Shown here in pieces: positions 8,391 to 26,789 of a DNA stretch of 64,000 nucleotides; the first letter of the stretch is position 1, and the number at the start of each line of letters is the position of its first letter. A program made the translations under genes and the position numbers. The stretch covers positions 558,001 to 622,000 of the forward strand of contig NZ_LQZA01000001.1 in assembly GCF_001581925.1 (NCBI RefSeq). Reading direction: 5' to 3'. The notes beneath the pieces were generated by a model. The model was not told the DNA's origin. It made no database searches and worked only from the letters and a program-made list of their open reading frames with translations. The DNA comes from Ferrovum sp. PN-J185 (GTDB lineage Bacteria > Pseudomonadota > Gammaproteobacteria > Burkholderiales > Ferrovaceae).

Positions 8391-9899
<1,509 letters not shown>

Positions 9900-9905
9900 T
9901 TGTGT

Positions 9906-11471: not shown

Positions 11472-11508
11472 TTTTTATATTGTAAGTTGTTGATTTATAA
11501 CGATTTAG

Positions 11509-11590
11509 AAGTTACACAGAAGTGACACACACCAAAATAAGTTCTTGATTTTATTAAGCACCGAGCTTAAAGTTGCACGTAAAGCTGCAC
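11509..11590 (+). repeat. Arm-type integrase repeats, left end
   Basis: Four directly repeated 9-mers of consensus AAG-pyrimidine-K-R-CAC: AAGTTACAC at 11509, AAGTGACAC at 11520, AAGTTGCAC at 11570 and AAGCTGCAC at 11582. They lie between attL and the integrase gene, as arm-binding sites of tyrosine integrases do. The function is inferred. Confidence 0.6.
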
Positions 11591-11632
11591 AAAATTGCAG
11601 CTACTCAAAATCGTAGCAACCCGCAGCCCTAA

Positions 11633-12919
11633 ATGACGCTTAAGAAAAAAACATTTGAAGAAGGTGAAGAGGCAATATTTGATGACGCTGTAATTTACAA
11701 GCGTGGAGAGTATTGGCAATTCCGAATGTGGCTTACCAAAGAGCACAAATACGCCCGATTTAGTTTAAAAACCCGAAATAAGAGTACGGCAATCGATAAG
11801 GCTAAGCTGCACTATCACGAGCTTAAAGCTGGCGAACTTGCCGGGAAAAAGTATTTTTCACTCACAACTAAAATTGGCGTAGAAAAGTATCTTGAAAGTC
11901 GTGAGAAAGAAATAGGGCAGCCTAATGGCATTGTTAAAGGCCGTTATGGAACTATCAAGACGCACCTTGAGCATTGGCTTAATTTTATTGGTCGCGATGT
12001 AAAGCTGAAAGAACTTGAGCGGACGGACGGTGAGGATTACCTAATTAATCGCACAAAAGGTAAAAAGAAATTACAGGTAAGTACAACTACGATTGCAAAC
12101 GAGCAGTCCACAGTCAATGCAATGATGAAGTGGCTATACAAACGTGGTGAAACGTATATTGACAGTTTTGACTTTAAGAAACTTCCACGCATAGATACGG
12201 GTGATGAAGCTAACCGTAGAAACACATTTACAGATTACGAATTTGATGAAATAACAATTGCTTTGAGGGCCTACATAGCCGAAGCTGAGAAAGACCTAGA
12301 AAATAAAGAGAATCTAACTAAAGCTATTACTGGCTATTACCTAGGTGTTTCTTTGATGTCAGGTATGCGTCGTGGAGAGCAGATGCAGCTTACATGGGCT
12401 GATGTTAAGGATATGGAGCATAAAAGGGCTAGAACCAAAGAATTTGATCTTGTAAAAATAACTGTTCGGGGCGTTACAAGTAAAACAGGAAAGACCAGAA
12501 GATTTGCGGTTAAAGATTCAGAAAGGTATTTGGAAAGACTTTTCAAGCTCGTACATAAACTGCATTTTAAAAAAGCAAATGACACTGAAGCGAAAGCAAT
12601 GTTGTCTGACTATCTAGTTTTTAGTAATAACGGTACCAGTCAAATTTCACCTCGAGCAATTGGATATCATTTCGATAAAATCTTAGAAATTGCGAAAATC
12701 AACAGGCAAGACCGTGATTTAGTGCCTTATAGCTGTAGGCATTATTTTATTACCAAACGTATGAATAGTAATGTGCCAATTACTGCAATTGCTGAGATGT
12801 GCGGAACTTCTATTGCCCAAATAGAACGCACTTACTATCACACTACAGATGAAAAAATGGTCAGTAATGCATTGGCAGACTACACTGTTAAAGATGGTAT
12901 GTATGTGCAAAAGCAATAA
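11633..12919 (+). CDS. int: Tyrosine-type site-specific integrase
   Basis: Probable integrase that moves the island in and out of guaA. It has 428 residues: an N-terminal AP2/arm-binding-like region (YWQFRMWLTKEHKYARFSLKTRN), a SAM-like core-binding domain, then the catalytic domain. The first catalytic Arg is in MSGMRRGEQMQLTW, the second in YSCRHYFITKR, and the nucleophilic Tyr in IERTYYH. The first His of the HxxR box is Tyr, and the LGH box reads CGT, substitutions that some integrases carry. ATG 11633 follows attL by 164 bp, and the gene points into the island. Confidence 0.9.
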   Translation: MTLKKKTFEEGEEAIFDDAVIYKRGEYWQFRMWLTKEHKYARFSLKTRNKSTAIDKAKLHYHELKAGELAGKKYFSLTTKIGVEKYLESREKEIGQPNGIVKGRYGTIKTHLEHWLNFIGRDVKLKELERTDGEDYLINRTKGKKKLQVSTTTIANEQSTVNAMMKWLYKRGETYIDSFDFKKLPRIDTGDEANRRNTFTDYEFDEITIALRAYIAEAEKDLENKENLTKAITGYYLGVSLMSGMRRGEQMQLTWADVKDMEHKRARTKEFDLVKITVRGVTSKTGKTRRFAVKDSERYLERLFKLVHKLHFKKANDTEAKAMLSDYLVFSNNGTSQISPRAIGYHFDKILEIAKINRQDRDLVPYSCRHYFITKRMNSNVPITAIAEMCGTSIAQIERTYYHTTDEKMVSNALADYTVKDGMYVQKQ

Positions 12920-12923
12920 GCTT

Positions 12924-13493
12924 TCAAACTAATTCAACAGCGTTACGCAGCACACCCGGACGTAAATCAATATAACGTTGTGTTGTCGCCATATTTGCAT
13001 GTCCTGCAAGTGCCATCATTACGCGAACACTCACGCCTTTTTCAGCTAGGTTAGTAAGAAAGCCTCTGCGACCACTGTGGCTGCTACAGCCGTCCATTCC
13101 AGCCTGCTTATAAATGCCGTTAACAACTTGGGTAAGTGAATTGGCTGTAAACGCTGCACTGCGTTGTGTGGCAAAAAGGGCTTGCTTTGGATCACGAACG
13201 CGAACTGTGCTGATATAGCTTGCAATCTCAGCTTGCATACGTTCGTTAAGCAATACGCTACGACTACGGTTGCCCTTTGTTTGAGCAGCTGTAAGGTTAA
13301 TTTCATCACGCACAGTGCCATCGCTTGCAAGCACATCGCAAACACGCACAGCAGCAACTTCACCAATACGCATTCCTGCCAAGTGCGTAAGCAGCAGGAT
13401 CACCCGATTGCGTTTTGCGTTTTTTGTTTTGTTCACAAAATCCAGCAAACGTTGCAGTTCGCGTTCGTTAAGTGTTTTAGCTTGCTTGGTCAT
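12924..13493 (-). CDS. Short tyrosine recombinase, catalytic domain only
   Basis: A 189-residue product from ATG 13493 (MTKQAKTLNERELQRLLDF), chosen because GGAAAAG lies just upstream; an upstream in-frame start at 13550 is possible. All catalytic boxes are present: Arg in LAGMRIGEVAAV, HSGRRGFLTNLAEKG (HxxR), LAGHANMATTQRYID (LGH-like and Tyr). The N-terminal SAM-like core-binding domain is almost absent. It converges on the larger integrase with only 4 bp between stop codons. It could be a second recombinase, a resolvase or a remnant that still looks intact; which is unknown. Confidence 0.82.
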   Translation of the reverse strand: MTKQAKTLNERELQRLLDFVNKTKNAKRNRVILLLTHLAGMRIGEVAAVRVCDVLASDGTVRDEINLTAAQTKGNRSRSVLLNERMQAEIASYISTVRVRDPKQALFATQRSAAFTANSLTQVVNGIYKQAGMDGCSSHSGRRGFLTNLAEKGVSVRVMMALAGHANMATTQRYIDLRPGVLRNAVELV

Positions 13494-13604
13494 TTGTCTT
13501 TTCCGCTTTGATATTGAAACAGTGCTATTAGTATGTTTTCGTATGTTCAAAATTCCTACCCCTTTTTTGCCTTTTTTTGCCTCAATAAAATCAACGACTT
13601 AGCT

Positions 13605-13769
13605 GCACTGAGCATGTTTTGTGTAATTTATGCTCAGTGCTATTTAGCTGCGTTTCGTGGCACAAATGCCACGGCTAGACGAAGATTTGCGTACAAGCCC
13701 TACACAGCGTTTTAAGCAAAAGTGCTGGTGCATGTAGCTCTGCGTGGCAATACGCCGCTTGTAGGGCTT
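13605..13769. other. Cluster of three hairpins in a 450-bp non-coding stretch
   Basis: The gap 13494-13991 has no convincing gene. It holds three perfect inverted repeats: GCACTGAGCAT (13605-13615) with ATGCTCAGTGC (13630-13640); CGTGGC (13656-13661) with GCCACG (13668-13673); and AAGCCCTACA (13695-13704) with TGTAGGGCTT (13760-13769). None is followed by a T-run, so they are not simple terminators. They could be recombinase sites, a structured RNA or a transfer-type origin. Confidence 0.5.
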
Positions 13770-13952
13770 TAAAAGCATTGCAGCTCACCGAAAAAGGCTG
13801 TGCAAGTCAAAAAATTCAGCTGCGTAAAAAGTTGCTGGGCAGTACTTACGCTTTCAAGATGATGATTTTTAACCCCTGACCACCATGGGCAGCAGCTATG
13901 ACAGCTTGCAGCTCAGTTTGATAAAAAAGACTTTCCATAAACATGCCACTTG

Positions 13953-13980
13953 GGTTACATTGGATACACATTGTGTAACC
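13953..13980. promoter_or_regulatory. Palindromic operator before the RHH gene
   Basis: GGTTACA (13953-13959) and TGTAACC (13974-13980) form a perfect 7-bp inverted repeat ending 11 bp before the RHH start codon. It encloses a GATACA/ACATTGTG segment that could be the -10 region. Position and symmetry suggest autoregulation by the RHH protein. Confidence 0.5.
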
Positions 13981-13991
13981 GAGAGAATGAC

Positions 13992-14177
13992 ATGAAAGAT
14001 GCTGGAATGCGTATTCGTCTAGAGCCTGAGCTACGGGATGCGTTCATGTCTGCATGTCATCAGAAGGATGTTCCAGCAGCACAAGTGCTTCGGGAGTTTA
14101 TGAAGGACTTTGTCAAGCATGTGGACACAGCACAAAGCTCTAAGAAACAGCAAAAAAAGTCGAAGGCACAGGGCTAA
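13992..14177 (+). CDS. Ribbon-helix-helix regulator (Arc/CopG-like)
   Basis: A 61-residue protein from ATG 13992 with one ribbon-helix-helix domain: the strand MRIRLEPELRDAFMSAC, a turn, then the helix AAQVLREFMKDFVKHV, and a lysine-rich tail. Such proteins bind DNA as dimers and usually repress their own operon. A palindrome lies 11 bp upstream and the helicase gene starts 3 bp downstream, so it probably controls the whole helicase-DUF4391-mod-res run. An in-frame upstream start (13950) would place the palindrome inside the coding region and is less likely. Confidence 0.75.
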   Translation: MKDAGMRIRLEPELRDAFMSACHQKDVPAAQVLREFMKDFVKHVDTAQSSKKQQKKSKAQG

Positions 14178-14180
14178 GCC

Positions 14181-17100
14181 ATGGAGCTACTAGACAACAT
14201 CAATCACCTGTTAGGTGACGACCTTAAAGGCACGCTCAAGCCTGCATCCCGTCTCAAGGTAGCAGCTTCGTGCTTCTCCATGTATGCATACGAAGCTTTG
14301 AAGACTGAGCTTGAAAAGATCGACTCACTCCAATTCATCTTTACAGCCCCAACGTTTACAGCCGATGAAGTTACTGACAAGGTAACCAAGGAGCGTCGAG
14401 AGTTTCACATACCTAAGCTTGATCGTGAGAAGAGTCTTTACGGTACAGAATTTGAGATACAGCTTCGCAACAAACTGACTCAGAGAGCAATAGCCAAGGA
14501 ATGTGCTAACTGGTTACGTCGTAAAGCTACGTTTAAGTCAAACAAGTCTAGAGCACCCATGCAGCAGTTTGCATGTGTGCAGTCAGAGGGCTTAGACACT
14601 GCCTACATGCCACTGCATGGTTTTACAGCCGTTGACCTTGGCTATCAGCAAGGCAATGCCGTTTCGAACCTAGTAAACAAGATGGACGACAAGTCCTTTA
14701 CAAGTACCTACTTGACGTTGTTTGAACAGATATGGAATGACACGGACAAGCTTGAAGATGTGACAACGCAGATTTGCGACCACATTGCGTCTGTGTATCA
14801 AGAAAACTCGCCTGAACGCATCTACTTTTTGATGCTCTACAACATATTCAACGAGTTTCTCGAAGACCTTGATGAAGATGTGCTGCCTAATGATCGAACA
14901 GGCTACCAAGAGACGCAGATATGGAAGAAGCTGTTCAACTTTCAAAAAGATGCTGCAACAGGGATCATTAACAAGCTAGAGACATACAACGGATGCATTC
15001 TTGCGGACAGCGTTGGACTTGGCAAAACGTTCACGGCTCTGGCGGTCGTTAAGTACTACGAGCTTCGGAACAAGTCTGTTCTTGTCTTGTGTCCTAAGAA
15101 GTTGGCTGATAACTGGCTGAACTACAACCGCAACCTTAAGACAAACATCTTTTCTCAAGACCGCTTTAACTACGATGTTCTTGCTCACACTGATTTGAGT
15201 AGAACTTCGGGCGAGTCTTTTGGTACGCCGTTGAATCGAATTAATTGGGGCAACTACGATCTTGTGGTGATCGACGAGTCACACAACTTCCGTAACAACG
15301 ACGCATACAAGGACAAAGAGACACGCTATCAAAAGCTGATGAATCAAGTTATTCGCCAAGGCGTAAAGACTAAGGTGTTGATGTTGTCAGCCACACCCGT
15401 GAATAACCGTTTCACTGATTTACGTAATCAGCTCGCATTAGCGTATGAAGGTGACTCAGAAAATCTAACCAAACGCTTGCGGACAGGTAAGTCAGTGGAA
15501 GATATTTTCCGCAATGCTCAGCTTGCATTCAATCGTTGGGCAAAGCTTCCACCTGAAGAGCGTACAGCACGAGCAATTCTTGATTCGCTGGACTTTGATT
15601 TTTTTGAACTGCTAGATAGTGTGACCATTGCACGTTCTAGAAAGCACATACAGACGTTCTACGATACGACTGACATTGGCAAGTTCCCTGAGCGTCGTAA
15701 GCCACTTTCATTTAATTGCAAACTCACACACAGAACAGATGTGATGAGCTTCAATGAGATTTTTGAACAGCTTAGCCTCTTGAAGTTGTCTGTATACGCA
15801 CCTGTTAGCTACATCCTGCCGAGTCGCCTTAAAAAGTACGAGGACATGTATGACACGCAGGTTGAGGGCAATCGAGGAAAGTTAAGACAGCTAGACCGTG
15901 AGAAGAGTCTGCAAGCGTTGATGACCGTTAACTTGCTCAAGCGATTGGAAAGTTCTGTAGAGTCGTTCAGGTTAACTCTTCAAAGCCTTAAGAACAATCA
16001 CAGCAGTACTTTGCAAAAGATTGCTGCATTCGATCAAGGCAGTACAGCTACTTCAGTAAGTGATTGGACGGACAAGGTTGAAACGCTTGAGGCTGACGAA
16101 GATGATGTTCCTCTTCTAAGTGATGATGAAATTGGCAGCAAGGTAAAGATTAATCTTGCCGACATGGACTTGCCGTCGTGGAAACACGATCTTGAAGTTG
16201 ACATGCAGATCATTGATGCTCTGTTAACTTCAATGAAAAAAATAACGCCTGCCGATGACGCTAAGTTGCAGCACCTTAAAGACCTGATCTTTAAGAAAAT
16301 CGACAACCCAATAAATGCTGGCAACAAAAAAGTATTGATCTTCACGGCTTTTGCTGACACAGCCAACTACCTTTATGAGCAGCTTGCTCCTATGCTTCTA
16401 AGCGAAAAGGGCTTGAACAGTGCTCGTGTGACTGGTAAGGATGCACCAAAGTCCACGTTGAAAAGGAGCTATGACTTTCAAGAGTTGCTTACCTTGTTCT
16501 CCCCAAGATCCAAAGAGAAAATGTGTGTCCTGCCGAACGAGTCAGCCGACATTGACATACTTGTAGGTACTGACTGCATATCTGAAGGTCAAAACCTTCA
16601 GGACTGCGATTTCTTGGTGAACTATGACATTCACTGGAATCCCGTTCGCATCATCCAACGCTTTGGTCGAGTTGATCGAATCGGATCGCAAAATGACAGC
16701 ATCCAGCTTGCTAACTACTGGCCTGACATATCTCTTGATGAGTACATTAATCTGAAGGAGCGTGTCGAAAGTCGGATGATGATTGCTGACGTGACAGCTA
16801 CGGGCGATGACAACGTACTAAGTTCGCAAGCTAATGATGTTGCTTATCGAAAAGAACAGCTGAGAAAACTGCAAGAAGAGGTGATTGAGCTTGAGGATTT
16901 AAAAACAGGCGTGTCGATCACCGATTTGGGGTTGAACGACTTCCGCATGGACTTGTTGAACTACGTAAAGACAAACGGTGACTTAGCAGGCTTACCAAAT
17001 GGTATGCATGCCGTCATTGCCGCTAAACCAGAGCAAGGGCTACCTGCTGGAGCAATCTTTACACTCCGTAATCGTAACGAAAGCGTCAACATCAATCAGC

Positions 17101-17453
17101 ATAATCGTCTGCACCCGTACTACCTTGTGTACGTAGGCAAGGACGGCAATGTTGTGGCTAACCATACGGAAGTAAAGCCACTGCTTGATTTGGTAAGAAG
17201 TAGCTGCAAAGGTCAGGTTGAGCCAGTACTAGATGCTTGCAGGCGATTTAATGATGAAACAGCCGATGGTCGCAAGATGCAAGGGCACTCTGAACTTCTA
17301 AGTAAAGCGATCAAGTCGATGATTGACGTGAAGGAAGAGAAGGACTTAGATAGCTTGTTTTCAAGTGGCAAGACAACAGCGTTAGTCAACACGATTGCGG
17401 GACTTGATGAGTTTGAGCTTATTTCCTTCATTGTTGTGCAGGAAGTTAAATGA
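14181..17453 (+). CDS. SNF2/HepA-like helicase of a defence-type cluster
   Basis: A 1090-residue SF2 helicase. Residues 1-250 form an N-terminal domain whose start (SRLKVAASCFSMYAYEAL..LQFIFTAP) resembles a PLD-like fold, without a visible HKD motif. The ATPase follows: Walker A DSVGLGKT at 276-283, DESH at 365-368, MLSATPVNN. The C-terminal helicase lobe has KVLIFTAFADTANYL, LVGTDCISEGQNLQ and RIIQRFGRVDRIGSQ (motif VI). It overlaps the DUF4391 gene by 4 bp (ATGA). The role is presumably DNA translocation in restriction of foreign DNA; that is inference from neighbours. Confidence 0.85.
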   Translation: MELLDNINHLLGDDLKGTLKPASRLKVAASCFSMYAYEALKTELEKIDSLQFIFTAPTFTADEVTDKVTKERREFHIPKLDREKSLYGTEFEIQLRNKLTQRAIAKECANWLRRKATFKSNKSRAPMQQFACVQSEGLDTAYMPLHGFTAVDLGYQQGNAVSNLVNKMDDKSFTSTYLTLFEQIWNDTDKLEDVTTQICDHIASVYQENSPERIYFLMLYNIFNEFLEDLDEDVLPNDRTGYQETQIWKKLFNFQKDAATGIINKLETYNGCILADSVGLGKTFTALAVVKYYELRNKSVLVLCPKKLADNWLNYNRNLKTNIFSQDRFNYDVLAHTDLSRTSGESFGTPLNRINWGNYDLVVIDESHNFRNNDAYKDKETRYQKLMNQVIRQGVKTKVLMLSATPVNNRFTDLRNQLALAYEGDSENLTKRLRTGKSVEDIFRNAQLAFNRWAKLPPEERTARAILDSLDFDFFELLDSVTIARSRKHIQTFYDTTDIGKFPERRKPLSFNCKLTHRTDVMSFNEIFEQLSLLKLSVYAPVSYILPSRLKKYEDMYDTQVEGNRGKLRQLDREKSLQALMTVNLLKRLESSVESFRLTLQSLKNNHSSTLQKIAAFDQGSTATSVSDWTDKVETLEADEDDVPLLSDDEIGSKVKINLADMDLPSWKHDLEVDMQIIDALLTSMKKITPADDAKLQHLKDLIFKKIDNPINAGNKKVLIFTAFADTANYLYEQLAPMLLSEKGLNSARVTGKDAPKSTLKRSYDFQELLTLFSPRSKEKMCVLPNESADIDILVGTDCISEGQNLQDCDFLVNYDIHWNPVRIIQRFGRVDRIGSQNDSIQLANYWPDISLDEYINLKERVESRMMIADVTATGDDNVLSSQANDVAYRKEQLRKLQEEVIELEDLKTGVSITDLGLNDFRMDLLNYVKTNGDLAGLPNGMHAVIAAKPEQGLPAGAIFTLRNRNESVNINQHNRLHPYYLVYVGKDGNVVANHTEVKPLLDLVRSSCKGQVEPVLDACRRFNDETADGRKMQGHSELLSKAIKSMIDVKEEKDLDSLFSSGKTTALVNTIAGLDEFELISFIVVQEVK

Positions 17454-18115
17454 CAAGCACGTTATTTAACTTTCCTAAGCAAGCGTATTTTGGGCGAGTT
17501 ATCCCAAAAACCAAGTTTTATGAACATGGATCACTGACAAGAAAGCTAAAAGATCTGTTTGTAAAACAGGTTGAGCAGATAGTTTGGCTCTACAAGCTAG
17601 CACCTGAAACAATAAATCTACCGTCTACTGAAGGTGTGCCCGAGCTACAAGTTTTCAAGGTTGTACTCAAAGGAGTCGATCTTGGCGATGATGTACTTCG
17701 ATGTATAGATCAGGCCGTGATGTTTCCGGTTCTATTTGAAGTTGAAAGCGGTGACAAGGTTAGATTAGTCGCTGCCTATAAGCGGAAGAGTAATTCAGCT
17801 GATGGCAAATGGGTGCTTACTGATTACTACTCAACTGAATGGTTGGCAGTTGATAGTCAAAGGGTTGATTTGCAATATTCACTTAGTCTCGCTTCAATTT
17901 ACGAACAGGTCTTGCAGGCATTAAGTCCCATCGAACCAAGACGAGGTGAGGGCGTAGATGCATTATTTGAAAGAAATGAAGAATTTAAAAAGAATACTAA
18001 TGAATTGATGAAAATTGAATCAAAGTTAAAACAAGAGAAGCAATTCAATAAAAGAGTGGAGCTTAATGCTTCACTTCGTGAAATAAAGAATTTAATTGAG
18101 CAATTAACTGCTTAA
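17450..18115 (+). CDS. DUF4391 family protein
   Basis: A 221-residue protein I recognise as DUF4391: the opening FPKQAYFGRVIPKTKFYEHG and the segment VEQIVWLYKLAPETINLPST are family hallmarks, followed by VLRCIDQAVMFPVLFEVE. The last 60 residues (ERNEEFKKNTNELMKIESKLKQEKQFNKR) are charged and heptad-like, probably a coiled coil. The biochemical function is unknown to me. It is coupled to the helicase by a 4-bp overlap and followed 21 bp later by mod, so it belongs to the same complex or pathway. Base composition becomes AT-rich in its last third. Confidence 0.78.
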   Translation: MTSTLFNFPKQAYFGRVIPKTKFYEHGSLTRKLKDLFVKQVEQIVWLYKLAPETINLPSTEGVPELQVFKVVLKGVDLGDDVLRCIDQAVMFPVLFEVESGDKVRLVAAYKRKSNSADGKWVLTDYYSTEWLAVDSQRVDLQYSLSLASIYEQVLQALSPIEPRRGEGVDALFERNEEFKKNTNELMKIESKLKQEKQFNKRVELNASLREIKNLIEQLTA

Positions 18116-18136
18116 TTTGAAACAGGAAGATATGAG

Positions 18137-20050
18137 ATGGAAAAAATGAAAATGCATTCAGCAAATATTACAGATCTAAATATTGAATCAATATTTAGAT
18201 TGTTTCCTAGTTGCGTCGTCGAAGCATTTGATAAAAACGGTAATTTATCAAAAAAAATAGACTTTGATTTATTGAAGCAAGAGTTATCTGCGGCAGTAGT
18301 TGATGGAATTACTGAGAGGTATCAGATTAACTGGCCAGGCAAGAGGGCGGCTCTTCTAACTGCTAATTCGCCAATCGCTAAAACTCTAAGGCCTTCGCGA
18401 GAGGAGAGCATTGGTTTTGATTCTACAAAAAATATTTTTATTGAAGGTGACAATCTTGATGTACTAAAAATGCTTCAAGAGACATATTTAGGGAAGGTGA
18501 AAATGATTTACATTGATCCTCCTTATAACACTGGCAATGATTTTGTGTACAAGGATAACTTTACGGAAGATCTGGAATTATATTTTGAACGATCAAATCA
18601 AGTGGATGCTGATGGCGGGAGATTGGTAAGTAATACCGAATCTAATGGCCGATTTCATTCTGATTGGCTTAATATGATTTATCCACGCTTAAAGTTGGCA
18701 CGTAATTTATTGAGGGATGATGGTGTTATTTGCATATCTATTGATGATAATGAGCAAGCAAACTTAAAAAAATTGTGTGATGAAATATTCGGCGAATCTA
18801 ATTTGGTTGGTGTTGTTGCTAAAAAATCCAAATTAACTAGCAATAGCGGAGAATTTTTCTCTCCTTCCCATGAATACATACTTGTATATGCTAAATCTAA
18901 GGAAGATTTAAATGGCTTTAGTGATCAAGAGTCTCAGGAAGACGAAGACTACATCAAACTATTTAAGCACGAAGACTCTTACAGCAAATACAATATAGTT
19001 GGACTTTATCAACCGTCTTTGACTTTAGAGCGAAGTAGGAATGCACGTTATTTCATTACATGTCCAGATGGATCGAAATGCATTCCACCTGAAAATAAAC
19101 GCTGGAGAGTAATTGAACCTTCATTTCATGAAATGGTTAGCAAAGATCTTGTTGTATTCAAAGAGACTAAAACTTCACCATTAATTGATGAAGATGGAAA
19201 GCAGTCAAAGTGGAATATCTATACAAAAATTTATCTAAAGGATAGGCTGGTTAGTGGTATGCGGCCTGTAACATTTTTAGATAGATACCCAAATTCAGAG
19301 GCGTCAAAAGATTTAATCAAACTTGATATTCCTTTTGACTTTTCAAAGCCAAAAAATCTAATCATTTGGCTGCAGAAAATATGTGGTGTAGATAATGATG
19401 ACATAGTCTTGGATTTTTTTGCTGGTTCGGGGACTACCGCACATGCTGTAATGCAATTAAATGCAGAGACAAATGGCAGTCGTCGCTTTATTTTGATTCA
19501 GATTCCTGAGCCATGCACCGAGAAAAGCGATGCTGCGAAAGCGGGATATAAATTTATAACTGACATTTCTAGGGAACGTATCCGTCGGGCGGGTAAGGCA
19601 ATTTTAGAAAGTGCACCTCTTATTGAATGGAGTAAAGATATCGGATTTCGCGTTCTAAAACTTGATGCATCTAATTTTTCAGAAATATATTACAACCCTG
19701 ATGCTGTTTCACAGGATTTGTTGAGTGAGCAAGAAGACAACGTTCGTAGTGATAGAACTGCTGAGGACTTGCTTTTTCAAGTGCTGCTCGATTGGGGTGT
19801 AGATCTTTCTTTACCAATTTCCAGCGAGATGATTCAAGGTAAGTCAGTATTTTTTGTGGATCAGAATGCACTTGTAGCTTGTTTTGACAAGCAGGGTGGT
19901 GTTGATGAAGACTTTGTTAAAGAGCTTGCAAAGCGTCAACCCTTGCGAGTTGTTTTCCGTGATGCTGGCTTTAAGTCCGATAGCGTGAAGATTAACGTCG
20001 AGCAAATCTTCAAGCTGCTTTCACCAAGCACAGAAGTTAAGTGCATCTAA
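18137..20050 (+). CDS. mod: Type III DNA adenine methyltransferase (Mod)
   Basis: A 637-residue beta-class N6-adenine methyltransferase. Catalytic motif IV is DPPYNTG at residues 127-133, and the AdoMet motif I is VLDFFAGSGTT near residue 430. The stretch between them, roughly residues 230-410, should hold the target recognition domain. Mod sets the recognition sequence and protects host DNA. The 5' two thirds are clearly more AT-rich (17 G/C in bases 18241-18300) than the 3' end (30 G/C in 19921-19980), which suggests recombination. It is followed after 9 bp by res. Confidence 0.93.
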   Translation: MEKMKMHSANITDLNIESIFRLFPSCVVEAFDKNGNLSKKIDFDLLKQELSAAVVDGITERYQINWPGKRAALLTANSPIAKTLRPSREESIGFDSTKNIFIEGDNLDVLKMLQETYLGKVKMIYIDPPYNTGNDFVYKDNFTEDLELYFERSNQVDADGGRLVSNTESNGRFHSDWLNMIYPRLKLARNLLRDDGVICISIDDNEQANLKKLCDEIFGESNLVGVVAKKSKLTSNSGEFFSPSHEYILVYAKSKEDLNGFSDQESQEDEDYIKLFKHEDSYSKYNIVGLYQPSLTLERSRNARYFITCPDGSKCIPPENKRWRVIEPSFHEMVSKDLVVFKETKTSPLIDEDGKQSKWNIYTKIYLKDRLVSGMRPVTFLDRYPNSEASKDLIKLDIPFDFSKPKNLIIWLQKICGVDNDDIVLDFFAGSGTTAHAVMQLNAETNGSRRFILIQIPEPCTEKSDAAKAGYKFITDISRERIRRAGKAILESAPLIEWSKDIGFRVLKLDASNFSEIYYNPDAVSQDLLSEQEDNVRSDRTAEDLLFQVLLDWGVDLSLPISSEMIQGKSVFFVDQNALVACFDKQGGVDEDFVKELAKRQPLRVVFRDAGFKSDSVKINVEQIFKLLSPSTEVKCI

Positions 20051-20059
20051 GGCCTGACG

Positions 20060-23000
20060 ATGAAGCTTAAATTCAAAGTACAGGGCTATCAGACGCAGGC
20101 AGTGCAATCTGTTGTAGATTGCTTTGCAGGGCAATCTAATGGAAGCGGTGTTCAGTATCGTGTCGATCCGGGGCAAGCTCCTGCTGGTACAGAGCAGGCA
20201 AGGCTCTTTGAGATGGGCTTTAAGAATGCTGAACTGTCTATTCCCCAAAGCAAAGTCTTAGAAAACATTACGCAGGTTCAGCGTAGTCAGAACCTTGCAA
20301 TTTCTCCAAATCTTGCGACTACCAAGGTCTGTCCCATCAATTTGGACATTGAAATGGAGACGGGTACTGGCAAGACCTATTGCTACATCAAGACAATTTT
20401 TGAGCTGAACAAGCTCTACGGATGGAGCAAGTTCATCATCGTCGTGCCGAGCATTGCGATTCGGGAGGGTGTGTACAAGTCTCTTCAAATTACAGCAGAC
20501 CATTTCCTAGAAAGCTACGGCAAGAAGGCACGTTTCTTTATCTACAACTCTAAGCAGCTTCACAACCTTGAGAGCTATTCGTCTGATGCAGGGATTAACG
20601 TAATGGTCATCAACGTTCAAGCCTTCAATGCAACAGGCAAGGATGCTCGTAGGATTTACGAAGAGCTAGATGAATTTCAGTCACGCAGACCGATTGATGT
20701 GATCAAAGGCAATAGGCCGATCATGATATTGGATGAGCCGCAGAAGATGGAGGGTGCTAAGACTCTAGATTCTTTGAAAGAATTTAATCCCTTGATGCTG
20801 CTTCGCTACTCTGCGACACACAAAACAACGCATAACAAGATTCATCGTCTTGATGCACTGGATGCGTACAACCAAAAACTAGTTAAGAAAATTGCGGTAC
20901 GTGGCATTTCAGTAAAAGGTTTGTCGGGAACAAACAGCTATCTTTACCTTGAAAGCATTCAGGTAAGTGCAAGCAAGCCGCCCGAAGCTCGCATTGAATT
21001 TGAAGTAAAGCAGAACAACGGCATTAAGCGTGTCGTTCGAAAGCTGACTAAGGGGCAAAACCTTTTCGATGAATCAAATGAGTTAGACCAATACCGTGAC
21101 GGCTATGTAATTTCAGACATTAACGCGAACACTGACACTGTGAGCTTTACGAACGGCGTTGAGCTACTGGCAGGCGAAGCTGTAGGTGATGTGAGTGAGT
21201 CATCTTTACGTCGTATTCAGATCCGTGAAGCAATCAAAGCTCACTTCGAGAAAGAGCAGGTGCTCTTCCATCAAGGCATTAAGGTTTTGAGCTTGTTCTT
21301 TATCGACGAGGTTGTGAAGTACCGTGACTACAGCCAAGACGATGAGAAGGGCGACTACGCCCGCATTTTTGAAGAAGAGTACAACCTTGCGTTGAACGAG
21401 GTTCTAACGCTTGAGGACACTGCATACAACGCATACCTTAAGGGCATTCATACAGATCAAACACACAGCGGCTACTTTTCGATTGATAAAAAGACTAAGC
21501 GGCTTGTTGATCCTGAGACAAGCAAGAAATCGACTGAGGCAGACGACGTTGATGCGTATGACTTGATTCTTAAGGACAAAGAGCGTCTTCTGTCGTTTGC
21601 TGAGCCTGTGCGTTTTATCTTCTCTCATTCTGCTTTGCGTGAAGGTTGGGACAATCCCAACGTCTTTGTAATCTGCACCTTGAAGCACAGCGACAACACA
21701 ATTTCACGTCGTCAAGAAGTTGGTCGAGGGCTGCGTTTGTCTGTAAACCAGCATGGTGATCGCATGGACAATCCTGCAACCGTTCACCAAGTGAACGTGC
21801 TGACAGTGGTTGCTAGCGAGAGCTACAAAGACTTTGTAACTGCTTTACAGCGTGACATTAGCGATTCTCTGTCTGAGCGGCCTCGCGTTGCTAGTGAGTC
21901 ATATTTCGCAGGCAAGGTGCTTAAGCTTGAAAGTGGTGACGTTGAGGTAACACCTCAGATCGCCAAGCAAATCTACAAGTACCTTCTGAAAAATGACTAC
22001 ACAGACGATGCAGATCGTGTTGCTGAGAAGTACCACGAAGACAAGCGTAATGGCACTGTTGCAGCTTTGCCTGATGAACTAAAGCCGTATGCCGAGCAAG
22101 TTTTTGCATTGATCGACAGCGTATTCAATGAGGCTCAAATTCCTTTACCTGAAAACGACAGGGGAGCTAAAACGAACCCTTTAAATTCAAACTTTGAGAA
22201 GAAGGAATTTAAAGAGCTTTGGAACAGGATCAATCGTAAAGCTGCTTACAGCGTTCACTTTGACAGTGCCGAGCTTGTTTCCAAGAGTGTTGCTACTCTT
22301 GATACTGAGCTTCGAGTTGCACCATTGCAGTACACCGTACATCGTGGCGAACAGGAAGCTGTGGCTACCTATGAAGATGTGAAACGTGGGGATGCATTTA
22401 AGCTGACTGAGACTGAAACGGCTACAGAGCGTGTGTCAGTGCATTCGTCGGTCAAGTATGACTTGGTTGGGAAAATTGCAGAAGCGACACAGCTTACGCG
22501 ATCTACCATTGCCAATATTCTTAAGGGCGTTTCTGTGGCTGTCTTTGCACAGTTCAAGACGAATCCCGAACACTTTATTGCTGAAGCTAGTCGTCTGATA
22601 AATGAACAAAAGGCAACATGCATCATTGAGCATCTGACCTACGATCCGATTGCTGAAACGCATGACATTGATATTTTCACTAGCTCTCAGAGCAAGCAGG
22701 ACTTTTCAAAAGCAGGGGCACAGCTCAAGCGACATATTTATGACTACGTTGTTACAGATTCTGACGTTGAGCGTCGCTTTGTGACCGAACTGGATACAAG
22801 TGATGAAGTTGTTGTCTATGCCAAGCTGCCTAGGGGATTTTTCATTCCTACACCTGTAGGCTCGTACAACCCCGATTGGGCTATTTCGTTCAAGCAAGGC
22901 AGCGTCAAGCACATTTACTTTGTCGCCGAGACTAAAGGCTCAATGTCGACCATGCAGCTAAGCGAGATTGAAAAATCTAAGATCAACTGTGCCCGTAAGT

Positions 23001-23092
23001 TTTTTGAGGAAATAAACAAGACGGTTGACGCTTCCAAGGTCAAATATGACGTGGTTGATAGCTACGGCAAGCTGATGGAGATTGTTGGCTAA
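20060..23092 (+). CDS. res: Type III restriction enzyme, Res subunit
   Basis: A 1010-residue SF2 translocase-nuclease that pairs with Mod. Walker A lies in [16 protein letters not shown] (GTGKT about 102-106), Walker B-like DEPQKMEG near residue 225, then [12 protein letters not shown]. The C-lobe signature [20 protein letters not shown] precedes [14 protein letters not shown]-(D/E)xK nuclease site is visible at the C-terminus: YNPDWAI near residue 937 and VAETKG near 956. It has full family length with no frameshift. Its 3' end overlaps the convergent unknown gene by 4 bp. Confidence 0.94.
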
Positions 23093-23805
23093 TCATCATC
23101 TTGCTCGTTCATTACTTCGAGAAGCTTGGCTAATTTTGTGCTGGATGAAACGTCTTTTTCGGGCGTTTCATACAGCAACTCATTCAACGCTGCTTCTACG
23201 GATTGAAGCTTTACATCTTGCTTGCTTTGAAATGAAAGCACGGACGATTTAGTTGACTGACCGAAGTGACTCCGTGACACGATGACACGAGGCACGCTAT
23301 CAAAATCAAGTCCTAGGTCGCTTTTATGACCAAAACTAATTGGACGATCAAACCAAGCTTTTAGGCTAGGGTCAATCTGAATTATTTCTTCAAGATGCTC
23401 TAAAACACGCTCAAAGTGGCCATCCGTTTGGTTGACTAGCTTTTTTGCTGTGCTGTGTTTGCCGTGCCTGCTAAATGCATCTGCTTTGTTGTACGAGAAG
23501 ATAGCAACACGAAGCAATTTTTCATATTTTTTGATTGGCTCGGGCTTTTCCTTCGATTCTTGACGTAAAGACCTTTGAGCGTCCCAGTTGTAGAGCATGT
23601 CTTGATATTGAGTGGCTGTCAGCCAAGTTTTCAACTGCCTGTTTTGAACATTTTTTCCCGACTTTAGGGAAGCGATCATTGTTTTGAGCTTTTCGGCTGT
23701 TTTGCTTTCAGCAAGTGACAGCTTACGAAGCTTTCGTTGATTGTTGGCTTTAGCTATGGCTTTTCTAATATCGTTGAGCGTCTTTGGCTTGTTTTTGGCG
23801 TTCAT
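23089..23805 (-). CDS. Unknown protein convergent with res
   Basis: A 238-residue product I do not recognise. The first 70 residues are very basic and helix-prone ([24 protein letters not shown]), and the middle has [24 protein letters not shown]. The C-terminus is acidic ([11 protein letters not shown]). There is no signal peptide or membrane segment. It converges on res with a 4-bp overlap and has its own palindrome-rich upstream region (23833-23877), so it is separately regulated. It could be an accessory or regulatory component of the adjacent restriction cluster, or unrelated cargo. Confidence 0.72.
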
Positions 23806-24586: not shown

Positions 24587-25024
24587 ATGGCAACGCTTGC
24601 ATCACTCAAACTCGTAGCAGCTAAAAAACCTACAAATCAACCGCCTGTTGTACATCGTCGCAACAAACTCAGCAGCAAGCTGTTCGAGCAAATCCAGCTC
24701 GCTACAGCACAAAGCGAAGGCGGTACATACGCTCCGACACGCACTAAGACTGTCACGAACGCCGACGGTGAACGTGTTGTTGTGACTCAGCTAAAACGCA
24801 TCAAGCCTTGGTGGTTTGTTGGTGAAAACGGCAAGGTCTGCATTGCCATTCGATACGGAGCAAAAGTCATCGAATTGAGTAAAGGCAAAACGGCTATCGA
24901 AGTGACTAGTCCGGCAGGCTTAATCGAAGCACTTGAAACGGTCAACGCTGCTGTTCTAGCAGGAGAGCTAGACGCTCAGATTGAAGCTGTGTCGGGACAA
25001 ATCCGTAACTTGTTTGTTAAGTGA
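24587..25024 (+). CDS. DUF6641 family protein
   Basis: A 145-residue protein. The opening TLASLKLVAAKKPTNQPPVVHRR and the middle segment KRIKPWWFVGENGKVCIAIR match, from memory, the DUF6641 family found on islands and plasmids of betaproteobacteria. No catalytic motif is visible. It is preceded by a good AAAGGA site. It heads a three-gene group with a 51-residue protein and a DUF6876 protein. The function is unknown. Confidence 0.7.
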   Translation: MATLASLKLVAAKKPTNQPPVVHRRNKLSSKLFEQIQLATAQSEGGTYAPTRTKTVTNADGERVVVTQLKRIKPWWFVGENGKVCIAIRYGAKVIELSKGKTAIEVTSPAGLIEALETVNAAVLAGELDAQIEAVSGQIRNLFVK

Positions 25025-25095
25025 ATTGCTGTACGAGCTGGCAATCTCAAAACTGTCAGCTCGTCATATCCATAAATAAACAAGGAGGACTTGCT

Positions 25096-25251
25096 ATGCG
25101 AGCTATGGAATTTACGAACACTGCACAACAGAATGTGACAGCTATGAAGCAACAAGCTAAGGCGGCACAAAAACGTGCAAAAGAAGCGGCTTTGCGACTC
25201 AAGCTTAGAAACGATCAACAGCGTCTAGCTCAAGTGATGGCACAACCATGA
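25096..25251 (+). CDS. Small helical protein between DUF6641 and DUF6876
   Basis: A 51-residue Ala/Lys/Gln-rich protein from ATG 25096, with an AAGGAGG site 6-12 bases upstream that decides the start. The sequence (AMKQQAKAAQKRAKEAALRLKL) predicts one long amphipathic, basic helix. Its stop overlaps the DUF6876 start by 4 bp (ATGA), so the two are translationally coupled. No family is recognised. Confidence 0.65.
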   Translation: MRAMEFTNTAQQNVTAMKQQAKAAQKRAKEAALRLKLRNDQQRLAQVMAQP

Positions 25252-25619
25252 CAAATAAAGCATCGCTTGAAATTGAATCGGCACTGCGTCAGTTCACTGG
25301 TACGGAGCACTATTACAGAACGAACGGCAATCTTGTCGTCACAGACGGCGTGAAGTTCCTTGCCGATGAAGCTAAATGCTATTGGCTGCTTGATCTTTAT
25401 GCTTCGCACTTAATTGGCGTTCACGGCGAGCAGGAAAGCTTCACCGTACTGAAGCTGACTCGTGTGGGTGCAGGTGCAAAAGTCGTTATCGAAGATGGCA
25501 ACGGCAATCAGTTGGCACAGCAGCATATTGAGTACACAGACTTTCCGCTTGCAAGCGTTACGCTTTACGGCGTTTGGGATGGAAGCATGTGGATTGTGAT
25601 GCTGACTAGCGAATACTAG
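25248..25619 (+). CDS. DUF6876 family protein
   Basis: A 123-residue protein whose pattern ALRQFTGTEHYYR, TDGVKFLADEAKCYWLLD and DGNGNQLAQQHIEYTDFPLASVTLY, ending LTSEY, matches my memory of DUF6876, common on plasmids and integrative elements. The function is unknown. It is the last gene before the right end of the island; the following 300 bp (25620-25921) are non-coding and hold arm-type repeats and attR. Confidence 0.7.
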   Translation: MTNKASLEIESALRQFTGTEHYYRTNGNLVVTDGVKFLADEAKCYWLLDLYASHLIGVHGEQESFTVLKLTRVGAGAKVVIEDGNGNQLAQQHIEYTDFPLASVTLYGVWDGSMWIVMLTSEY

Positions 25620-25846
25620 AGACTGCCGAAACTCCACCAAACGAATCAAAATCGCATGGTTTTGGTTGGTTGTGGATGATCGCATGTCATCCTTGCACAC
25701 GTTGATGAGAGATAGCTTAAATGGTTAGAGTAGGGCTATAGTGCGTCACTAAGTTTTGTGCTCCTGCACACCGTGTAACCCCTCAAAGTGTAAAATGTTG
25801 ATTCTGTAAGCGTTTTTATTTTTTCTAAGGACGCATTAACCAAGGT

Positions 25847-25868
25847 AACTTGCACAAAAGTTACACAG
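25847..25868 (+). repeat. Arm-type integrase repeats, right end
   Basis: AACTTGCAC (25847-25855) and AAGTTACAC (25858-25866) repeat the left-end 9-mers with the same 11-bp period. The 11-mer AAGTTACACAG is identical to 11509-11519 and lies at nearly the same distance from its core repeat as on the left (about 54 bp). Confidence 0.6.
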
Positions 25869-25921
25869 CACTATTAACGGAGTCGTAAGTGATTGAAAAT
25901 AAACATGAAATTACTTACGTT

Positions 25922-25937
25922 ACTATTGAGTGGGAGT
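25922..25937 (+). repeat. attR core of the guaA island
   Basis: Second copy of ACTATTGAGTGGGAGT. Read in the guaA frame it encodes TIEWE followed by TGA at 25937-25939, which is probably the pre-insertion end of guaA. Confidence 0.9.
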
Positions 25938-25978
25938 GAAGTCGTTTTTTAACGTATTGATGTTGTTGAATATATCTA

Positions 25979-26019
25979 ATGCCATTGATGATTGCGCTTG
26001 CGTCATCAATGGCATTTTT
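25979..26019 (+). terminator. Displaced guaA terminator
   Basis: Perfect 13-bp inverted repeat ATGCCATTGATGA (25979-25991) / TCATCAATGGCAT (26003-26015), followed by TTTT. It lies 40 bp after the ancestral guaA stop, so it was separated from guaA by the island. Confidence 0.85.
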
Positions 26020-26176
26020 CATGGTGGTAGCAAAGCAATCGGCAGTATGCGGGGGGATACCACTAATCGGACTGGACGGCCCTCATGGTATCGCGAGGTA
26101 CGGTGGCAATCCTTGAAAGACAGGATGGCTGCTTGACAAGATACGGGAATCCAGTATAAAATTATACATGTGAACA

Positions 26177-26464
26177 GTGATCGAAACCCCGACATTTCAG
26201 AAGCAGGCCGAGAAGCTGTGGTCAGAGGACGAGCGGCTGGTCTTCATCGACTGGATTGCAGCGAACCCGCTGGCCGGGGATGTGATCCCAGGTGCGGATG
26301 GCGCACGCAAGGTTCGCTGGAGCCGTGCAGGATCTGGCAAGTCAAGCGGTGCGCGGGTGATCTACTTTAATCTGACTGAGCAGGAAGTGGTGTTGCTGGT
26401 AGCGGTGTATGCCAAAGCTGAACGCGCCAACATGCTTCCCGCCGAAATCAAAAAGGTGGTGTGA
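26177..26464 (+). CDS. RelE/HigB-like toxin
   Basis: A 95-residue type II toxin of the RelE/HigB2-like family, probably a ribosome-dependent mRNA nuclease. GTG 26177 is the start that gives VIETPTFQKQAEKLWSEDER. The fold pattern is visible in FIDWIAANPLAGDVIPGADG, RKVRWSRAGSGKSSGARVIYF and LVAVYAKAERANM. It is followed 1 bp later by its antitoxin. The region is noticeably GC-rich compared with the flanking chromosome, suggesting acquisition. A truncated relative lies at 27802. Confidence 0.85.
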   Translation: MIETPTFQKQAEKLWSEDERLVFIDWIAANPLAGDVIPGADGARKVRWSRAGSGKSSGARVIYFNLTEQEVVLLVAVYAKAERANMLPAEIKKVV

Positions 26465-26465
26465 A

Positions 26466-26789
26466 ATGGGTATCAAGAAAATCGACGTAGAGAAGGTGGC
26501 GACGGCTATCGAGGCCGATGCCGGTGAGGCATTTCTTGATTTGCGGCAAGCACTTGCAGAGGCGAAGGCAGGACTTGGGCGTGTCACAACTCCGGAGCAG
26601 ATCATCGTGCGTCAAGCGCGGGAGAAGACCGGGTTGACGCAATCCGCGTTCGCCGAGCGCATTGAGACCCCCGTGGCAACGTTGCGTGACTGGGAGCAAG
26701 GTCGGTTCTCCCCTCCGGGAGGGGTGCTGTGCCTGCTTCGGCTGATCATCAAGCATCCCGAGTTGTCTCAAGAGTTGAGCACCGCATGA
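26466..26789 (+). CDS. HTH (XRE) antitoxin
   Basis: A 107-residue antitoxin from ATG 26466 (GIKKIDVEKVATAIEADAG), chosen because it directly follows the toxin stop. A C-terminal XRE helix-turn-helix is visible: AREKTGLTQSAFAERIETPVATLRDWEQG. It should neutralise the upstream toxin and repress the pair. It has the same GC-rich composition as the toxin. The toxin-first order is typical of higBA-type modules. Confidence 0.85.
   Translation: MGIKKIDVEKVATAIEADAGEAFLDLRQALAEAKAGLGRVTTPEQIIVRQAREKTGLTQSAFAERIETPVATLRDWEQGRFSPPGGVLCLLRLIIKHPELSQELSTA

Follow-up and report, generated by a model that had tools for sequence, protein, structure and literature searches.

Type III restriction enzymes are Mod2Res1 assemblies that depend on ATP and cut DNA some 25 bp away from one site of an inversely oriented pair, and they have been described as sliding switches that need two sites in this orientation. 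In Ferrovum sp. PN-J185 the mod and res genes of a type III system directly follow genes for an SNF2-type helicase and a DUF4391 protein, which raises the question of whether these two proteins belong to the restriction system or are neighbours of it. The window, that is the whole stretch of DNA analysed here, comprises 64,000 nucleotides and its features are given in Table 1.

Conservation of the four-gene set

The ORF positions reproduced all the coordinates and junctions of a sequence-only reading of this DNA, with a 3-bp gap between the RHH and helicase genes, a 4-bp overlap between the helicase and DUF4391 genes, and gaps of 21 bp between DUF4391 and mod and 9 bp between mod and res. The res gene and the minus-strand ORF overlap tail-to-tail by 4 bp, and the ATG start of the RHH gene (13992) is internal to a longer TTG ORF from 13950. 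That reading had counted the RHH gene and the unknown minus-strand gene as members of the cluster. The survey below retained the SNF2 helicase, DUF4391, Mod and Res, which form one conserved unit and the core of the system, while the other two genes are local extras.

Table 1 Features of the locus (positions in the window)
Feature	Position	Strand	Remarks
Probable integrative island in the 3' end of guaA	11454..25937		Exact 16-bp direct repeat
Tyrosine recombinase just inside the island	11633..12919	+	PF00589 46 bits
Second, short tyrosine recombinase (XerD-like)	12924..13550	-	PF00589 97.6 bits; TIGR02225 86 bits, below cut-off
Small RHH-like protein, probable local regulator, outside the conserved core	13992..14177	+	Weak RHH match
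SNF2-type SF2 helicase, 1090 aa	14181..17453	+	Predicted pseudo-PLD N-terminus, RecA-like motor, C-terminal extension
Helicase part modelled as a PLD fold without the HxK catalytic motif	14181..14918	+	AF2, Foldseek, VIA, alignment
Approximate exchange block, window versus Polynucleobacter sinensis	17440..19690		DUF4391 and most of Mod diverged
DUF4391 protein, 221 aa	17450..18115	+	PF14335 191.5 bits
Mod, type III methyltransferase	18137..20050	+	DPPY at 127, FAGSG at 428
Res, type III restriction subunit	20060..23092	+	Helicase motor and PD-(D/E)xK endonuclease
Unknown gene converging on res, local cargo	23089..23805	-	ORF; tblastn

Among the surveyed loci, which included the best 80 of 343 relatives, the helicase preceded DUF4391 in all 108 genes with at least 3.4 kb upstream, and all four genes were present in 75 of the 76 DUF4391 loci with both flanks. 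Conservation of the order helicase-DUF4391-mod-res, for which a neighbourhood survey had been proposed, was thus borne out. Where at least 9 kb was available downstream, again with the best 80 of 343 included, Mod was present for 80 of 81 DUF4391 genes and Res for 79 of 81. The sequence-only reading was right in placing DUF4391 beside mod genes elsewhere. Redundant rows were kept and, since the best 80 of 343 relatives were taken, close relatives are over-represented in these counts; profile matches scoring under 80 bits were left out beforehand, as were the loci that gave no DUF4391 profile match (L169, L178 and L152). The exceptions were L140, which has only a fragment of Mod and lacks Res within 10 kb, and L160, which starts at a contig end and has neither Mod nor Res within 9.7 kb. 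In L148 mod-res stands before helicase-DUF4391, about 0.4-0.5 kb separates the helicase and DUF4391 in L092, L102, L104, L137 and L157, and some genes are split between frames, including the helicase in L070 and L079.

The four-gene loci counted above include some from Chlorobiota, Planctomycetota, Bacteroidota, Synergistota and Acidobacteria (phyla taken from record titles), and annotated plasmids from Actinomycetota, Bacillota and an archaeon have the identical order. Chance falls far short of explaining an order that recurs in distant phyla. The set is carried by plasmids, by a phage-like element and by a probable integrative island.

Across 398 genomes, all 20 helicases scoring at least 387 bits were located in genomes with DUF4391, while 15 of the 37 genomes with a Res of at least 600 bits had no DUF4391; eight of these 15 have at least 4 kb ahead of mod, with no such helicase in that stretch. 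The dependence is therefore one-sided, with the helicase tied to DUF4391 and Mod-Res able to go without the pair. Independent occurrence, which the sequence-only reading had named as evidence against a single machine, was accordingly found for Mod-Res and not for the pair in the downstream counts above. A separate clade of stand-alone Res was considered and rejected, as these proteins are spread over the tree, which shows 9 label changes, a figure that is not a count of losses since seven of the 14 "alone" labels (L190, L207, L241, L242, L243, L245 and L246) come from contigs ending before the place of the helicase.

The repeat copies bounding the probable island lie at 11454-11469 and 25922-25937. 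The RHH matches were weak (PF19839 at 17.7 bits against a cut-off of 23.4; PHROG 19878 at 35.8 bits), and by tblastn of the surveyed loci the gene occurs only in the window locus, L061 and L125; other copies of the system have WYL or HTH regulators. The minus-strand gene was found by the same search only in the window locus, L061 (80% identical) and, remotely, L096 (33%), and it had no Pfam, PADLOC or PHROG match and one NCBIfam match under the cut-off (20.6 versus 32 bits).

Motifs and folds of the four proteins

The search against the PADLOC defence collection, another check that had been proposed, returned HKD+Snf2 for the helicase (C3a139, PDLC01075; full-length match at 403 bits over residues 2-1087), MTase_III for Mod (741 bits) and REase_III for Res (1117 bits). 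In Pfam the helicase matched SNF2-rel (46.6 bits) and Helicase_C (54.2 bits). Its motor motifs are GLGKT at 279, DESH at 365, SATP at 403 and QRFGRVDR at 826, with GLGKT and DESH invariant in all 108 aligned helicases.

The sequence-only reading had described the N-terminus of the helicase as PLD-like, which held for the fold and failed for the catalytic motif. The N-terminal AF2 model (mean pLDDT 73.4) matched SauUSI (7clg) with a Foldseek E-value of 4.4e-05, and SauUSI was also the best VIA match (Z 13.3, rmsd 3.3, 145 aligned). In the alignment none of the 109 DUF4391-linked helicases keeps either the catalytic His or the catalytic Lys in the motif columns, the His column being a gap in 106 of the 109 rows, and HxK was absent from the motif region in nine more helicases of the system. 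In related helicases outside the system the motif is still present, as HGK, HAK or HSK. One fragment (L234) starts behind the PLD domain and lies outside this judgement. The domain therefore looks like a dead nuclease that has lost its catalytic His and Lys, on the basis of an alignment and a model of moderate confidence.

Res matched RE_endonuc (116 bits) and has TGTGKT at 101, DEPQ at 225, PD at 938 and ETK at 957, with the P, D, E and K of PD...ExK invariant in 84 of 84 rows. Together with the loss of the catalytic residues from the PLD domain, this suggests that the nuclease role has been transferred to Res. Mod matched N6_N4_Mtase (117.7 bits) and keeps the D, P, P and Y of DPPY in 102 of 102 relatives, in the beta-class order with DPPY ahead of FxGxG; the last Gly of the second motif (FAGSG) is the commonest residue in only 39 of the 102. 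Judged by these alignments, Mod and Res possess their catalytic motifs, and both were homologous to the subunits of EcoP15I (4zcf), with E-values of 6.4e-67 for Mod and 1.3e-81 for Res.

The AF2 model of the DUF4391 protein (pLDDT 94.2) has an alpha/beta domain and a C-terminal helical hairpin, and four residues, K20, W46, E65 and K111, of which all but W46 are charged, are invariant across the 82 aligned rows. For this fold, a Foldseek search of PDB and BFVD returned nothing at an E-value of 0.001 or better; as the VIA list was filled by the coiled coil and the alpha/beta part was barely probed, it is not called a new fold. The DUF4391 profile had four weak matches among PDB sequences, at E-values of 0.18 or worse and mainly in the helical end. 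These structure and profile comparisons, the structural one dominated by the coiled coil, revealed no known nuclease fold or motif. No described role was found for DUF4391 in the literature searched, with subscription papers mostly outside it, the mention there being a table line.

Exchange of Mod and comparison with described systems

The identity between the window and P. sinensis was 98.6% for the helicase and 98.4% for Res, falling to 58.8% for DUF4391 and 56.9% for Mod, and the flanks of the exchange block mostly exceeded 85% DNA identity. This suggested DUF4391 as a specificity partner of Mod, a candidate that was rejected on the wider sample. In 47 pairs of helicases at least 93% identical, drawn from 78 loci with all four genes full-length, the median identity was 90% for DUF4391, 51% for Mod and 87% for Res, and Mod was below 70% in 45 of the pairs. 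In partial rank correlations, for pairs that are not independent, DUF4391 identity gave 0.24 against the helicase, 0.14 against Res, 0.08 against the Mod core and -0.09 against the whole of Mod. The medians and the correlation of 0.08 indicate that the double swap of DUF4391 and Mod was one exchange event rather than a rule, and since DUF4391 identity tracks that of Mod no more closely than that of the other two proteins, a Mod-specific adaptor is not favoured. Mod has a variable middle part, and these identities indicate that it is swapped on a constant chassis of the other genes. The motor is probably not tied to one sequence, since Mod recognition domains differ widely between loci whose helicases and DUF4391 proteins are closely alike.

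The window shares with EcoP15I the homologous Mod and Res, their catalytic motifs and a variable middle of Mod, and is set apart by the two additional upstream genes, for DUF4391 and the pseudo-PLD SNF2 helicase. Some type III systems were already known to have an extra ATPase gene 5' of mod (Murray 2021, PMC8259958). According to the parts of that report available to us, Eco86II of E. coli NCTC86 is a type III m4C system with an upstream helicase-like ATPase that has no nuclease motif, a likeness to the window; its methylation did not need the extra helicase gene, and the partly purified enzyme cut DNA while mass spectrometry gave no peptides of the extra helicase. In the Eco86II group the helicase lies directly 5' of mod, whereas in the window DUF4391 stands between them. 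New here are the pseudo-PLD helicase without catalytic residues, the variation of Mod on a constant chassis and two slots for defence genes in the operon.

In E. coli D8 mod lies 20 bp behind an SNF2 helicase with no DUF4391 between, and two NCTC86 records matched this helicase-mod-res locus with 97.7% identity over 76% of the query. Relatives of the D8-type helicase in L248 and L253 were DrmD-like by PADLOC and reached 85-97 bits against the window-type helicase profile, over the motor alone. The NCTC86 locus resembles L278 and L253 in its DNA and, given the PADLOC result for L253, is probably of a DrmD-like type without DUF4391. The window helicase scored 121 bits or less against the PADLOC DrmD models versus 403 bits for PDLC01075, and it was under the curated cut-off of DISARM DrmD (NF038317, 150 versus 610 bits).

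SauUSI, a type IV ATP-dependent endonuclease, likewise combines in a single chain a PLD fold at the N-terminus and an SF2 motor behind it; it keeps H(X)K(X)4E and has an SRA recognition domain, whereas the window helicase has no such motif and accompanies Mod and Res. The HKD motif implied by the name of the PADLOC profile C3a139 is likewise absent from the window helicase, although the profile was matched over its full length, and against the NCBIfam phospholipD_antiphage model (NF042964) the helicase scored 118 bits with a cut-off of 1100. We take Gao_RL to be the same as the DUF499-centred, BREX-related Type-2 BR with its HKD-helicase and DUF3780. As described in the available portions of two reports (PMC12839542, PMC10925250), these share with the window a methyltransferase, a PLD-type SNF2 helicase and a small DUF protein. 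The window has the type III Mod-Res instead, and its operon proteins had no DUF499 or DUF3780 match.

Possible function and origin

We give about even chances to a type III restriction system with an auxiliary DNA motor and an adaptor. DUF4391, with its alpha/beta domain and coiled-coil hairpin, would tether the helicase to Mod or Mod-Res, and the dead PLD domain could serve in pairing or DNA gripping, as in the SauUSI PLD dimer. The motor would supply ATP-driven translocation, whereas for Res alone ATP may be mainly a switch followed by sliding, and it may help one Mod-Res complex to locate or run into another, to get past roadblocks, or to act where sites are few or badly oriented. Cutting would be done by Res. 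The Eco86II result would, if the same applies here, place the motor outside the cutting enzyme. The DrmD-like lineage before mod-res in E. coli, a second helicase lineage, argues that type III Mod-Res gains from an SNF2 partner. In favour of this reading stand the linkage of the four genes in the survey, the loss of the PLD catalytic residues, the swapping of Mod on a constant chassis and the PLD match to SauUSI, an ATP-dependent translocating restriction enzyme; against it, Mod-Res from this family is also found unaccompanied by the pair, in the 15 genomes mentioned above.

The motor and adaptor reading, if true, would suggest that the two-inverted-site limit of type III enzymes has been worked around at least twice, by the pseudo-PLD helicase with DUF4391 and by the DrmD-like helicase. 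DUF4391, a Pfam family without a function, acquires a set position within a single system, and surveys that list these loci as plain "type III" or "HKD nuclease" would have to be corrected. The retention across phyla of an apparently dead nuclease domain and the swapping of Mod on a constant chassis are directly testable.

An unlikely alternative is that the helicase and DUF4391 are a separate second line, a sensor or effector that comes into play after restriction has failed or in response to phage DNA that is damaged or stalled, and that takes no part in restriction itself. The two operon slots collect known effectors (SIR2-HerA, Schlafen-like, Fic and OLD-like), which suggests that layered defence is common here, and this reading is in keeping with the cutting by Eco86II without its extra helicase and with Hachiman, in the available part of its description an SF2 helicase that senses DNA and releases an effector. 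A free-standing layer would however be expected alone more often than the downstream counts of Mod and Res allow in a survey that included the best 80 of 343 relatives, the nuclease motif of the helicase appears dead, and DUF4391 matched no nuclease in the comparisons made.

We consider it quite improbable that the pair is regulatory, restraining Res on new host sites or replication forks or helping Mod to finish methylation, which would let the system spread on plasmids and islands while sparing the new hosts. The mobile settings of the set would suit such a role, as would the need of some type III systems for more than Mod in methylation, as far as the sources available describe it; yet the extra helicase of the Eco86II group was dispensable for methylation in the accessible part of its report, and Mod-Res persists without the pair. 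That DUF4391 is itself an enzyme, perhaps a nuclease supplying the effector that a helicase-driven machine would otherwise lack, is very doubtful: the four invariant residues and the confident model would be consistent with it, and against this stands the outcome of the nuclease comparisons, which barely covered the alpha/beta part. Two unrelated defence-island neighbours with a tight spacing by chance, conceivable since defence genes cluster and Mod-Res can stand alone, are scarcely credible and as a general account refuted by the 75 of 76 both-flank loci, distant phyla included.

It is possible, though rather unlikely, that DUF4391 is a general helicase-to-methyltransferase adaptor and that the four-gene set is a hybrid class, derived from a two-gene machine of a nuclease-active PLD-SNF2 helicase and an adaptor-methyltransferase chain that took over a type III Mod-Res; the helicase nuclease would then have decayed while the motor was kept for a restriction that translocates instead of sliding. 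The nearest helicase with an intact motif is that of L256. The ORF behind it matched the DUF4391 profile in its N-terminal part (16 bits, E-value 0.0015), which is followed by an Eco57I-type methyltransferase. In a scan of 3,730 ORFs no other one outside the DUF4391 family exceeded 11 bits, and this ORF was counted five times since it is shared by five loci; a profile-profile comparison yielded a probability of only 10%. Motif-intact helicases also stand in front of related proteins on Planktothrix and Parabacteroides plasmids, and neither of these two proteins matched the DUF4391 profile. For the N-terminus of the L256 methyltransferase, no relatives were found in viral contigs, 172 genomes gave its own copy only, 200 genomes gave its own copy and one partial match outside the DUF4391-like part, and two plasmids carried relatives.

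The four-gene set and its conservation

The six open reading frames of the cluster lay where the sequence-only reading had placed them, with the same spacing of 3-bp gap, 4-bp overlap, 21-bp gap and 9-bp gap. Pfam, PADLOC and NCBIfam upheld the identities of the SNF2-type helicase, DUF4391 protein, type III Mod and type III Res, while the proposed RHH gene had a weak family match and the minus-strand gene was, as that reading had it, without a known family. Catalytic motifs were all present on inspection of the helicase motor, Mod and Res and were invariant across aligned relatives, barring positions of Mod motif I (Ala at its second position in 74/102 relatives; last Gly the commonest residue there, yet in only 39/102; Ser in 101/102) and the Thr of Res ETK (83/84). 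The EcoP15I subunits are solved relatives of the window Mod and Res, and two more solved methyltransferases were related to Mod.

Positions of features in the window and in two surveyed loci
Sequence	Feature	Position	Strand	Remark
Window	RuBisCO large subunit gene	5442-6878	minus	Pfam catalytic domain, 468 bits
Window	guaA	9900-11471		probable island in its 3' end
Window	exact 16-bp direct repeat	11454-11469 and 25922-25937		guaA 3' end and downstream, 14.5 kb apart
Window	helicase, DUF4391, Mod, Res	14181-23092	plus	four-gene set
Window	DUF6641, DUF6876, HTH/MqsA-antitoxin-like gene	24587-26789		island remainder and just beyond
L278	DrmD-like SNF2 helicase, type III mod, res	7983-17382		helicase ahead of mod and res
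L256	methyltransferase region	11160-15234		behind motif-intact helicase

Profiles were built from the four window proteins and 121 DUF4391 hits were examined, with loci taken from 80 genome contigs (the best 80 of 343 relatives), two even genome samples and six annotated plasmids. A same-strand helicase lay upstream of DUF4391 in all 108 genes with at least 3.4 kb upstream, and downstream Mod was found for 80 and Res for 79 of the 81 genes with at least 9 kb on that side; one locus that begins at a contig end (L160) had neither within 9.7 kb. All four genes occurred in 75 of the 76 loci with both flanks, L140 being the sole exception, and this conserved neighbourhood supported the four as one conserved gene unit. 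The set is real and widespread, and is a variant of type III restriction earlier described only in part.

Bacterial members belonged to Pseudomonadota, Chlorobiota, Planctomycetota, Bacteroidota, Spirochaetota, Synergistota, Acidobacteria, Actinomycetota and Bacillota, and the archaeal member to Methanomethylovorans. Of the 398 genomes in one sample, 23 had DUF4391, each above the family cut-off; the other sample gave 15 of 369 genomes, 13 of them above it. Ten of 5,426 E. coli genomes had a helicase gene at least 95% identical to that of an E. coli plasmid in the survey (L033). The phage-like element Erysipelothrix phage phi1605 also bore the set, its DUF4391 gene being annotated as a methyl-accepting chemotaxis protein yet matching the DUF4391 profile at 100 bits.

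Dependence between the helicase-DUF4391 pair and Mod-Res

The helicase family split into two score groups in the 398-genome sample. The 20 genomes scoring at least 387 bits all had DUF4391, and genomes without DUF4391 gave one score of 348 bits and the next of 185 or less. In the other three of the 23 DUF4391 genomes (G441, G444, G665) little of the contig was left upstream of the gene. Res (PDLC03647) at 600 bits or more gave 38 matches in 37 genomes, 22 with and 15 without DUF4391. By locus, 19 of the 38 were beside a DUF4391 gene and 11 of the other 19 were on contigs stopping short of the helicase position. Neither this type of helicase nor DUF4391 was found at the remaining eight Res loci, each with at least 4 kb fetched in front of mod (L239, L240 with a Mod fragment only, L244, L247, L248, L251, L252 and L253), although in L248 and L253 a DrmD-like SNF2 helicase preceded mod. 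Independent occurrence was therefore seen for Mod-Res, whereas the pair was nearly always followed by Mod (80/81) and Res (79/81). The confinement of high-scoring helicases to DUF4391 genomes, together with Mod-Res loci lacking the pair, indicates that the pair depends on Mod-Res and not vice versa.

Features of the pair and its possible role

The N-terminal 246 residues of the helicase were modelled on their own (pLDDT 73) and the prediction resembled PLD-fold proteins, SauUSI being the top match (Foldseek E 4.4e-05; VIA Z 13.3, rmsd 3.3, 145 residues). Below it ranked enzymes such as NgoAVII and BfiI, along with FAM83 proteins, which are PLD folds without catalytic activity. The PLD-like N-terminus of the sequence-only reading thus held for the predicted fold but not for the catalytic HxK motif. 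In an alignment of 109 DUF4391-linked helicases and five relatives outside the system, the two HxK positions were without His or Lys in all 109 (His column: 106 gaps, 1 Asn, 1 Pro, 1 Ala; Lys column: 72 Gln, 13 Pro, 9 Ser, 6 Asn, 4 Gly, 3 Ala, 1 Glu, 1 gap), unlike in the five relatives, which retained HGK or HAK in sequence. An HxK triplet occurred at other columns, within residues 81-190, in 5/109, and none started between residues 26 and 222 in nine further members, encoded by a phage or on plasmids of Bacillota, Pseudomonadota and Thermodesulfobacteriota. Two helicases, of Planktothrix and Parabacteroides plasmids, retained HAK and HSK and sit in front of methyltransferase-like proteins. 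The PLD domain is probably a structural remnant, and DNA cutting would be the work of Res.

The DUF4391 model (pLDDT 94) had strands and helices to residue 158 followed by two long predicted helices (169-195 and 199-220), and K20, W46, E65 and K111 were invariant in all 82 aligned rows. No fold match was found for this model, the coiled coil having taken up the list of structural matches, and in the literature searched DUF4391 occurred in a single paper, as one entry of a table.

The pair, with its linkage, intact ATPase motifs and degenerate PLD motif beside intact Mod and Res motifs, is taken to supply a type III enzyme with an auxiliary motor and an adaptor. The helicase and DUF4391 would form a complex with that enzyme, and the motor would translocate on DNA and might help site search or the passing of roadblocks. 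SauUSI is described as dimerizing through its PLD domains and translocating on DNA (PMC7913695). Among six m4C type III systems described by Murray and colleagues (PMC8259958), two carry an additional helicase-like ATPase directly 5' of mod, a gene that is close by in more than 500 genomes; methylation proceeds without it, and mass spectrometry did not detect it in a partly purified preparation of Eco86II, of E. coli NCTC86, that cut DNA. Of the points against a motor required for cutting in vitro, this Eco86II result is the strongest.

Two NCTC86 records aligned with the E. coli D8 locus at 97.7% identity, covering 76% of the query. Unlike the window, D8 has an SNF2 helicase, 20 bp, mod and then res, with no DUF4391. 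Since the D8-type helicase is DrmD-like, from its DNA similarity to L253 and a PADLOC scan of L253, the NCTC86 ATPase appears to belong to a different helicase lineage from that of the window. Relatives of the L253 helicase DNA were present in 251/5,426 E. coli genomes, some annotated beside a MADS gene.

At L256, the nearest locus with a motif-intact helicase outside the DUF4391-linked set, the ORF behind the helicase matched DUF4391 at 16 bits (E 0.0015), and of the 3,730 ORFs scanned no other one outside the family exceeded 11 bits. It precedes an Eco57I-type methyltransferase in another frame. Comparison by hhalign reached a probability of 10% (P 0.003), and no DUF4391 profile match was seen for the counterparts in Planktothrix and Parabacteroides. 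For a bolder reading this DUF4391-like ORF is a lead, not a result. The methyltransferase region reads in two overlapping frames, the change of frame lying either in the gene itself or in its assembly.

Mod exchange, inserted genes and the probable island

Seventy-eight loci with all four genes full-length gave 47 pairs with helicase identity of at least 93%, and in 45 of these Mod identity was below 70%. Median identities across the 47 were 90% for DUF4391, 51% for Mod and 87% for Res. The variable part of Mod in the 45 pairs was approximately residues 141-500, its ends being 77-95% identical, and a variable middle over near-constant helicase, DUF4391 and Res points to one chassis with many recognition domains. 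EcoPI and EcoP15I follow the same pattern (PMC8259958). The window and Polynucleobacter sinensis, the best-matching named genome among the matches listed, are a special case in which DUF4391 diverged along with Mod (RHH 96.7%, helicase 98.6%, DUF4391 58.8%, Mod 56.9%, Res 98.4%), the divergent DNA running from the DUF4391 start to about 19690, short of the mod end. Tandem mod pairs before a single res, seen at L242, L084 and L136, are perhaps alternative specificities.

Insertions, defined as intergenic gaps above 350 bp, lay between DUF4391 and mod in 52/117 loci and between mod and res in 37/99. Twenty of 25 listed representative inserted proteins were scanned with Pfam, and matches included AAA_15 with OLD-like TOPRIM, UvrD-like, DUF2130, Schlafen AlbA_2, YhcG, BRO-N, RhuM, SIR2_2, HerA (DUF87), zeta-like, ORF6N, Fic, PLD-like, GmrSD, AAA_13 and AbiH/DUF4917. 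Two of the 20, both from L140, had no Pfam match, and for a third L140 protein the sole match, to a coiled coil, fell short of its cut-off.

Two tyrosine recombinase genes adjoin the guaA end inside the 16-bp repeats, which had no third copy on the plus strand within the window and are probably the attachment sites of an integrative island carrying the cluster. The RuBisCO gene shares the window with this island.
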